A stretch of 64,000 nt of DNA, taken from assembly GCF_015234135.1 (NCBI RefSeq), contig NZ_JADGIK010000006.1, forward strand, positions 62,001 to 126,000, given 5' to 3'. Position 1 is the first letter of the stretch. Every line of letters begins with the position of its first letter. The position numbers and the translations under genes were made by a program. The notes under the pieces were generated by a model, which saw only the letters and a program-made list of their open reading frames with translations, was not told where the DNA came from and ran no database searches. Shown piece after piece: positions 45,976-47,503 of the stretch. This DNA is from Faecalibacter rhinopitheci. Lineage in GTDB: Bacteria > Bacteroidota > Bacteroidia > Flavobacteriales > Weeksellaceae.

Positions 45976-46066
45976 AATTGTTTAAAGTTGAATTGATTAC
46001 TTTGTTTCTAAATTAATATTTATTCTTTAAAAAATATGTTTATAAAAAGTTAATTAACATTGGTAT

Positions 46067-46074
46067 TAAATTTG
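46067..46074 (+). promoter_or_regulatory. -7 promoter box for tmRNA
   Basis: TAAATTTG matches TAnnTTTG and lies 39 nt before the tmRNA 5' end, a distance like that at tRNA-Arg. No -33 TTG at normal spacing. Confidence 0.45.
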
Positions 46075-46113
46075 TAAGTTTGTCATCCATCTTAAATGAT
46101 GAACTTATTACAT

Positions 46114-46508
46114 GGGGCTGACTGGTTTTGACAGCAAGGCCAATGTGTAAGTAAGCATGCAGTGAAATGTTGTGTACTCACTTTAATCAGGCACTTCAAC
46201 TTTTTAACTGGCAACGAAGAGTACGCTTTAGCTGCATAATTCTGAATCAAGTAGGAATTTGCCCAGTCTGTATTAGATACAGAAGCTGAATGTCCCTCAA
46301 AAGCCTTGACTTACGGCGTTTGATTAAGGGACACGGGAAAGTAAGAATAGGAATCCTAGTGCATCGGATGGGTTCCGAGATTTTAAGATGATAAGCGGTT
46401 GACAGAGTGTTTGTTCTCAGTTAATCGTCGAAAATTAAGAATAAACTAAGCATGTAGAAAGCTTATGTGTTGCTTGTTTGGACGCGGGTTCGAATCCCGC
46501 CAGCTCCA
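46114..46508 (+). ncRNA. ssrA: tmRNA (SsrA), tag GNEEYALAA
   Basis: The 395-nt sequence starts GGGGCTGACTGGTTTTGACA and ends GGGTTCGAATCCCGCCAGCTCC plus discriminator A, so the tRNA-like ends pair (GGGGCTG with CAGCTCC). A tag reading frame starts at the resume codon GGC at 46210 and ends with TAA at 46237-46239, encoding GNEEYALAA, close to the GExNYALAA-type tags of Bacteroidota. The RNA rescues stalled ribosomes and tags products for ClpXP-type proteolysis. CCA is not encoded. Confidence 0.97.
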
Positions 46509-46530
46509 CTTTTTTAACAACATTTGTTTC

Positions 46531-46565
46531 AAAAACCTCTATTTTAACAGAAATAGGGGTTTTTT
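46531..46565 (+). terminator. Terminator after tmRNA
   Basis: AAAAACCTCTATTT, loop TAACAG, AAATAGGGGTTTTTT with one G-T pair, 22 nt after the tmRNA. Confidence 0.9.
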
Positions 46566-46719
46566 TGTGTCCATAATATACTAATTATTAATTTTTCATG
46601 CAATTTGTAAAATGAAAGTGGGGAGCATCATATTTTAAATATCCGTATTCAAATTTTATGGATTTAAAAATAAATTAATATAATTTTTAATAAATTCATA
46701 TTTATCCAATTTATTGTTG

Positions 46720-47028
46720 TACATTTGTACCGATATCAGAGATAAGATATTATAAGTTACAAACTAAATCGTTTTACATACCATTTTTTATATTTTTGGC
46801 AAGTAGCCAAACACTTCTTAGACTATTGTATTATTTTACCTTTAATTTTTACTTTTCAATATACTCAATTCTAAATTGATTTTCAATCTCGAATATTAAA
46901 CGTGATATTATCACACGTTAAGATGATAATAAGTTAGGAGAATAAAGTTAACAACTTTTATTAAAGTTAGTTCCTTTAAGATATTATATTGAAGTTTTCA
47001 ATATTCTCCTTTTTTTAAAGTAATTATT
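46720..47028 (+). promoter_or_regulatory. Promoter box and long structured 5' leader of the cold-shock gene
   Basis: No gene occupies 46567-47028. TACATTTG at 46720-46727 is a candidate -7 box, which would give an untranslated leader of about 300 nt. It holds three hairpins: TTTGGC/GCCAAA (46795-46811), AACGTG/CACGTT (46899-46919) and a last large helix AGGAGAATA (46936-46944) with TATTCTCCT (47002-47010). The last one encloses two smaller hairpins (46944-46958 and 46989-47001) and is followed by a T-run just before the ATG. Long folded leaders are known for enterobacterial cspA; homology is not implied. Confidence 0.55.
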
Positions 47029-47220
47029 ATGCAAGAAGGTACAGTAAAATTTTTCAATGAAGCTAAAGGTTTTGGATTCATTACAGTTCAATCAACAGGG
47101 AATGAAATCTTTGTTCACACATCTAATTTAATTGATGATATTAGAGAAAACGATAAAGTTTCTTTTAATGTTGAGCAAGGTCAAAAAGGTATGATGGCAA
47201 CTAACGTAAAAAGAATCTAA
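47029..47220 (+). CDS. Cold-shock domain protein (CspA family)
   Basis: The 63-residue protein is a single cold-shock domain: GTVKFFNEAKGFGFI with RNP1 (KGFGFI, about 14-19) and RNP2 as NEIFVHTSNL (about 27-36), ending GMMATNVKRI. It binds single-stranded RNA/DNA and acts as an RNA chaperone. The gene follows a long structured leader and ends before a terminator, so it is monocistronic. Confidence 0.95.
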   Translation: MQEGTVKFFNEAKGFGFITVQSTGNEIFVHTSNLIDDIRENDKVSFNVEQGQKGMMATNVKRI

Positions 47221-47287
47221 TAATTCTTAATTATAAGTTTGTAAGGTAGTTTAACTATGTTATAAATAATATAATTCAACATACATG

Positions 47288-47324
47288 GGCTAAGTCTTTA
47301 TTGAAAGAACTTAGCCTTTTTTTT
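47288..47324 (+). terminator. Terminator after the cold-shock gene
   Basis: GGCTAAGTCTTT, loop ATTG, AAAGAACTTAGCC (one bulged A) and a run of eight T. Confidence 0.9.
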
Positions 47325-47503
47325 GTGAATAATTTTTACACAATTATTCCTATTAAGTATATCTATCACTTCATATATCTCCATATTTTCCCATTATTTT
47401 TTATAGTCTAATAATTACTCTATTATGTAAATTCTTGTCTATTTTATAAGAAATATTCAAATATTAAAGTATTAATTTTGTAAGAAGTTAGATTGGAATA
47501 ATA

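Follow-up and report, generated by a model that had tools for sequence, protein, structure and literature searches.

In the window (the whole stretch of 64,000 nt of Faecalibacter rhinopitheci DNA analysed here), the cold-shock gene csp is preceded by a leader of ~290-294 nt lying between a TAnnTTTG promoter and the csp ATG (47029). Comparison with related genomes indicates that this leader is real and is kept under selection. We estimate at about one half the probability that it is a cis-acting 5′ untranslated leader which would govern how its own mRNA is translated and/or how stable this mRNA is, and analogy with known csp leaders suggests that it is probably responsive to Csp or to cold. 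Features of the locus are collected in Table 1.

Table 1. Features of the csp leader and neighbouring sequence, in positions of the window
Feature	Positions	Strand	Basis or remark
Promoter TAnnTTTG, TACATTTG	46720-46727	+	Bacteroidota-type -7 element; in 10/10 orthologs; conservation begins here
5′ box GATATCAGAGATAAGATATT, predicted local 5′ hairpin (AUAUC with GAUAU)	46732-46751	+	RNAalifold local hairpin
Small hairpin around GGC-AAGTA-GCC	46794-46811	+	In G010, G-C pair exchanged for A-U (compensated)
CTTCTT block, head of a pyrimidine-rich stretch (~46814-46860)	46814-46819	+	Kept in 9/10 orthologs
ATCTCGAATATT, candidate 3′ strand of P1 (partner 46732-46743)	46886-46897	+	8-sequence consensus
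ACGTGATATTATCACACGT, hairpin with invariant ATCAC	46900-46918	+	Ortholog comparison, consensus fold
Terminal helix (probable), 5′ strand AGGAGAATA	46936-46944	+	Comparison, RNAalifold
TAGTTCCTTTA, inside the terminal helix	46968-46978	+	In all 8 genus leaders, with another last base in L093
Terminal helix (probable), 3′ strand TATTCTCCT	47002-47010	+	Full complement of 46936-46944
T-run	47010-47016	+	Not conserved immediately 3′ of the helix in 4/10 leaders
csp gene, 63-aa cold-shock domain protein	47029-47220	+	ORF and domain match
Intrinsic terminator after csp, ordinary, compact hairpin and T8	47288-47325	+	Fold -14.8 kcal/mol

Extent and conservation of the csp leader

Bacteroidota use TAnnTTTG promoters and their transcripts start a few nucleotides after the element; here, the start is predicted at ~46732-46735. 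The original prediction of such a box followed by about 300 nt of untranslated DNA held, the promoter being in place and the following ~290 nt carrying no conserved frame. No ORF of at least 40 aa lay wholly within 46735-47028 on either strand, and lowering the threshold to 20 aa gave one TTG-started frame of 27 aa (+ strand) and one frame of 21 aa (- strand) wholly within the leader. Moreover, no ATG-started upstream frame of at least 8 codons was common to the 10 orthologs, and a leader-peptide attenuator was thus not supported. The csp product itself matched PF00313 (E 1.6e-19). Upstream of the csp promoter, there is a tmRNA gene (46114-46511) followed by its terminator; a link between tmRNA and the leader was rejected since no tmRNA was detected at the other nine ortholog loci.

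We examined conservation in a genus set of 14 genomes, 8 of which had a csp ortholog with at least 84% identity (rows L007 and L008 were dropped, since they denote the loci L091 and L093 again). The leader with the same promoter was found in all 8. A profile of these 8 leaders searched against 245 csp upstream regions retrieved, beyond its own members, only L115 (G073:C1, E 8.8e-35) and L116 (G072:C3, E 3e-34), in which the leader also precedes csp and which belong to two further genera. In all ten orthologs we thus found the features by which we recognize a Bacteroidota csp leader: a TAnnTTTG promoter, a long untranslated leader and csp next to it. Pairwise identity was 0.24-0.45 ahead of the promoter and 0.60-0.86 throughout the leader, compared with 0.70 for third codon positions of csp. 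The jump (to 0.62-0.86) was sharp and lay around the promoter, and conservation continued into the ATG.

L115 and L116 each come from a single sampled genome of their genus, with csp proteins 81% and 79% identical, respectively. Other sampled genomes of these genera were without this csp and its leader, suggesting transfer or patchy loss. The loci L093 and L092 used below come from G010 and G008; in L092, a cobalamin riboswitch (Rfam RF00174, 62.2 bits) was observed downstream of csp, at 2095-2222.

The conserved promoter, together with the terminator-like end before the ATG, would also suit a separate small RNA gene located upstream of csp. However, the element adjoins this csp ortholog at 10 of 10 places and was found nowhere else among 296 family genomes (E 0.01, strict filter), and conservation extends into the csp ATG; we consider such a gene very improbable. 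No second copy of the leader was detected in the own genome, where the best other matches had E values of 1.16 and 2.72. All 10 leaders went into a covariance model of their 5′ 134 nt and so match it by construction; among the 296 family genomes, the model matched nothing beyond them. Absences among these genomes mean little, since the first-look filter scores ~13 of thousands of candidates.

Probable terminal helix and other elements of the leader

The last helix and the T-run described in the original prediction were both present, the latter as seven T. Folding energy of the leader region was unremarkable compared with shuffles (z -0.63 for 321 nt and -1.44 for 151 nt) and, when only the window sequence was considered, 6 of 100 dinucleotide shuffles had an equally long stem close to the ATG. 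The helix is lifted above chance by the onset of conservation at the promoter and by its recurrence at the same place with compensated changes. The same observations bear on a DNA-level explanation, in which regulator-binding sites would be conserved and the RNA folds incidental: the unremarkable z-scores speak for it, but ~300 bp are conserved up to the ATG, compensated base pairs included, and we regard this explanation as highly unlikely.

In an alignment made by hand, at least 7 of the 9 terminal pairs were kept in every ortholog and double changes occurred at 3 of them (A-U/G-C/U-A, G-C/A-U and A-U/U-A), while the MAFFT alignment gave double changes at 2. For L115 and L116, the helix could be drawn by hand with GAGGGUUU or GAGAGUUU against AAAUUCUC; its loss from the consensus on adding these two is at least partly due to alignment. 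The covariation score in the MAFFT alignment was 0.144 vs 0.119 for shuffled alignments (9 of 500 shuffles as good), 84.6% of cells were paired vs 47-67% with the partner slid, and permutation of strands among the 6 distinct terminal-helix sequences gave p 0.025. Three other shuffle controls were not passed: cells paired (143/500), double-change pairs (90/500) and further pair types (293/500). The covariation that was to be sought in relatives was obtained for 2-3 compensated pairs of this helix, whose comparative support is modest. At 37°C, the energy model predicted the helix strongly in only 4 of the 10 orthologs; its probability was 0.37 for the window and did not exceed 0.16 in the remaining five. 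Across orthologs, the helix ends 15-33 nt before the start codon.

We then considered a second, long-range pairing. The first 12 nt of the 5′ box are complementary to 46886-46897, and unguided RNAalifold on the 8 genus leaders returned this candidate helix, P1 (GAUAU-CA-GAGAU/AUCUC-GA-AUAUU, 46732-46743 with 46886-46897), along with a small inner helix, the GGC/GCC hairpin preceding CUUCUU, an ACGU hairpin and the terminal helix. When L115 and L116 were included (10 sequences), P1 and the terminal helix left the consensus and a local 5′ hairpin appeared. P1 had 88% of cells paired, with one-sided changes only and no double change. It was partly broken in L092, L115 and L116, which for the last two partly reflects an alignment shift. 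The energy model preferred the local 5′ hairpin over P1 in most members, and the two structures are mutually exclusive. From their comparative and energy results, we regard the terminal helix as probable and P1 as a candidate.

Among the other elements, the CTTCTT block with its pyrimidine-rich stretch is a plausible Csp-binding site, judging by base composition. The TAGTTCCTTTA block is absent from G072 and G073, the genomes of L116 and L115; it resembles the 16S rRNA tail, and pairing with GAAGGNAC, immediately downstream of the csp start codon, would be possible. Taken across the 10 orthologs, the comparison supported the structured csp leader that had been proposed and showed it to be conserved. 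Folding of these 10 sequences at 5-37°C showed no consistent temperature switch in the energy model; in the window sequence alone, cooling from 37 to 15°C lowered the predicted probability of the terminal helix from 0.37 to 0.03.

Terminator, constitutive and regulatory readings

The terminal helix and T-run had originally been read as a possible attenuator or thermosensitive switch. As an attenuator, they would form an intrinsic terminator at the leader end, whose helix Csp or cold would melt (antitermination). At least 6 T directly follow the helix in the leader of the window and in five further ones, and the nearest NCBIfam model for the csp product is CspE ‘transcription antiterminator’, although its score of 68.3 falls far below the cut-off of 120. 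Against this reading, 4 of the 10 leaders keep the helix without such a T-run, the sequence after the helix being ACTTTTT in L093, ATTTATC in L092 and ATAAAA in L115 and L116; conservation of the helix thus reaches further than that of the T-run. As a terminator, the helix would moreover need to enclose ~57 nt, whereas the ordinary terminators here, 3′ of csp and of tmRNA, are compact hairpins with T7-T8. A terminator scan of 46000-47500, which allows only far shorter loops, detected none. With the T-run conserved in only 6/10 leaders and a negative scan, the terminator was dropped as the main reading; the claim is weak and we find it improbable. A role of the terminal helix at the border of the initiation region appears to fit better.

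In the cis-acting leader that we prefer, folding would change in the cold, or upon binding of Csp to the U/C-rich tracts. When Csp is needed, the initiation region, which is without Shine-Dalgarno sequence, would be held open; when Csp is plentiful, this region would be closed or the mRNA degraded. The stretch to which ribosomes bind would be flanked by the terminal helix, which would not stop transcription. By analogy with E. coli and S. aureus, the leader would most likely adjust csp translation or stability to temperature and Csp level. In the parts of the literature consulted, csp leaders of both species act on translation/stability (PMC9947658, PMC3386247): E. coli cspA is described with a long untranslated leader, alternative folds and CspA binding to its own mRNA, and Csp proteins are described as binding single-stranded, pyrimidine-containing RNA (sections of PMC9947658). 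The S. aureus cspA 5′ UTR, of 113 nt, is processed by RNase III, and both stability and access of ribosomes depend on its structure, that of the 5′ end included (sections of PMC3386247). It is shorter than the leader of the window.

The S. aureus case is also a precedent, by its RNase III processing (PMC3386247, in the part consulted), for a constitutive leader without any sensing, in which a 5′ hairpin and a long leader would protect or process the mRNA and so give high, steady csp expression. A hairpin is possible at the predicted 5′ end in 10 of 10 orthologs, and covarying 5′-end pairing is found in the second type of leader presented below. Such a constitutive role alone leaves conserved blocks such as TAGTTCCTTTA and ATCAC..CGTTAAG unexplained, and we judge it doubtful.

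Membership of the leader in RF01766 (cspA thermoregulator) was rejected at 19.6 bits vs a cut-off of 78 (46962-47081, E 0.0081, 731 bases searched). Both are long untranslated leaders on a cold-shock protein mRNA, but they differ in sequence and helices, and the match runs into the coding part. Rfam gave nothing at gathering threshold at the leader of the window. In Flavobacterium psychrophilum, unassigned structured 5′ regions occur; those named in one section of the report concern pheA, hisG, ftsY, acsA, alaS and rimP, and not csp (PMC9723704). The original prediction knew of no such design in Bacteroidota, and we found no description of a csp leader there in Rfam or in the literature searched, which included the accessible parts of PMC7366714 and PMC8040213 and covered few subscription papers.

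A second type of csp leader in related bacteria

Leaders of ~200-240 nt with TAnnTTTG promoters were also found before csp in Polaribacter, Lutibacter, Aquimarina, a Prolixibacteraceae genome and others. This second type (fl-type) has a distinct core and occurs in other Flavobacteriaceae and in a few genomes outside the family. We gathered 18 members (L060, L033, L028, L027, L059, L050, L086, L011, L206, L133, L134 and L230-L236). An 8-sequence profile found L011 independently and then L206, L133 and L134 among the 245 csp upstream regions, and BLAST with one fl-type leader added seven more csp leaders, L230-L236. This BLAST matched 50 of 397 genomes; 11 loci were examined, comprising the 7 csp leaders and 4 without csp motif, and the rest were weaker U-rich matches. 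No Rfam match was obtained at ten fl-type loci.

In these leaders, the first ~20 nt of the transcript have their complement in a segment ~30-50 nt ahead of the start codon, which ends 29-34 nt before it. Both sides of this 5′-3′ helix have changed between members (CACAAUAAAAGAUACC with GGAUAUUCUUUAUUGUG, AUCCAAGAAAGACACCU with AGGUUCUUUGUUUGGAU, GUUCAAGGUAGA with UCUACUUGAAC). Own duplexes averaged -13.4 vs -9.5 kcal/mol for permuted ones, with 0 of 100,000 permutations as good (n=18), and 34 of 100,000 were as good in a less redundant subset (n=11). When partners were compared separately, only 4 of 11 members paired best with their own 3′ segment. L083, for which no promoter was found, was left out of the helix test; the duplex of this locus did not surpass shuffled ones (163/200). 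By eye, the ACCU of the helix could pair in several members with a nearby AAGGU, as an exclusive alternative.

Similarly to the leader of the window, the fl-type combines a TAnnTTTG promoter, 5′ pairing, a small hairpin, CUUCUU and a U/C-rich tract, but it has the long 5′-3′ helix instead of the terminal helix. An fl-type covariance model (R1) gave only 2 hits among 296 genomes of the order, under the first-look filter mentioned above, and neither the leader of the window nor those of its orthologs scored above noise with it; the profiles likewise did not cross-match. Homology of the two types was thus unsupported by profile or covariance model in either direction, and their kinship is unproven, since neither model finds the other type above noise. 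A weak nhmmer co-linearity (L116, E 7.6) was not taken as evidence.

A third set of csp leaders was observed in genus g17 of the same family, at a guess Chryseobacterium, and in relatives (L124, L147, L156, L148, L155, L154 and L221). Close to the ATG, they show a hairpin of variable sequence, in most of them UGGY..GCCA or AGGAU..AUCCU. A GAG-N4-CTCTT element, as in the fl-type leader, is present in 3 of the 7.

A common csp switch of Bacteroidota, operating without Shine-Dalgarno sequence, is a tentative idea that we rate as rather unlikely. In such a switch, the 5′ end of the transcript would alternate between a local hairpin and long-range pairing to a leader segment further downstream. Csp or cold would shift the balance and with it the state of the initiation region, and the leader of the window would have diverged from this design and have a terminal helix of its own.

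In E. coli and S. aureus, csp genes are known to be regulated through structured leaders, but the Bacteroidota leaders tested matched no Rfam family. The covarying 5′-3′ helix of the relatives offers a directly testable structure. To our knowledge, Bacteroidota rarely use Shine-Dalgarno pairing for translation initiation. With such pairing largely missing from the phylum, a leader controlling initiation would show how genes of this kind are controlled by RNA structure.
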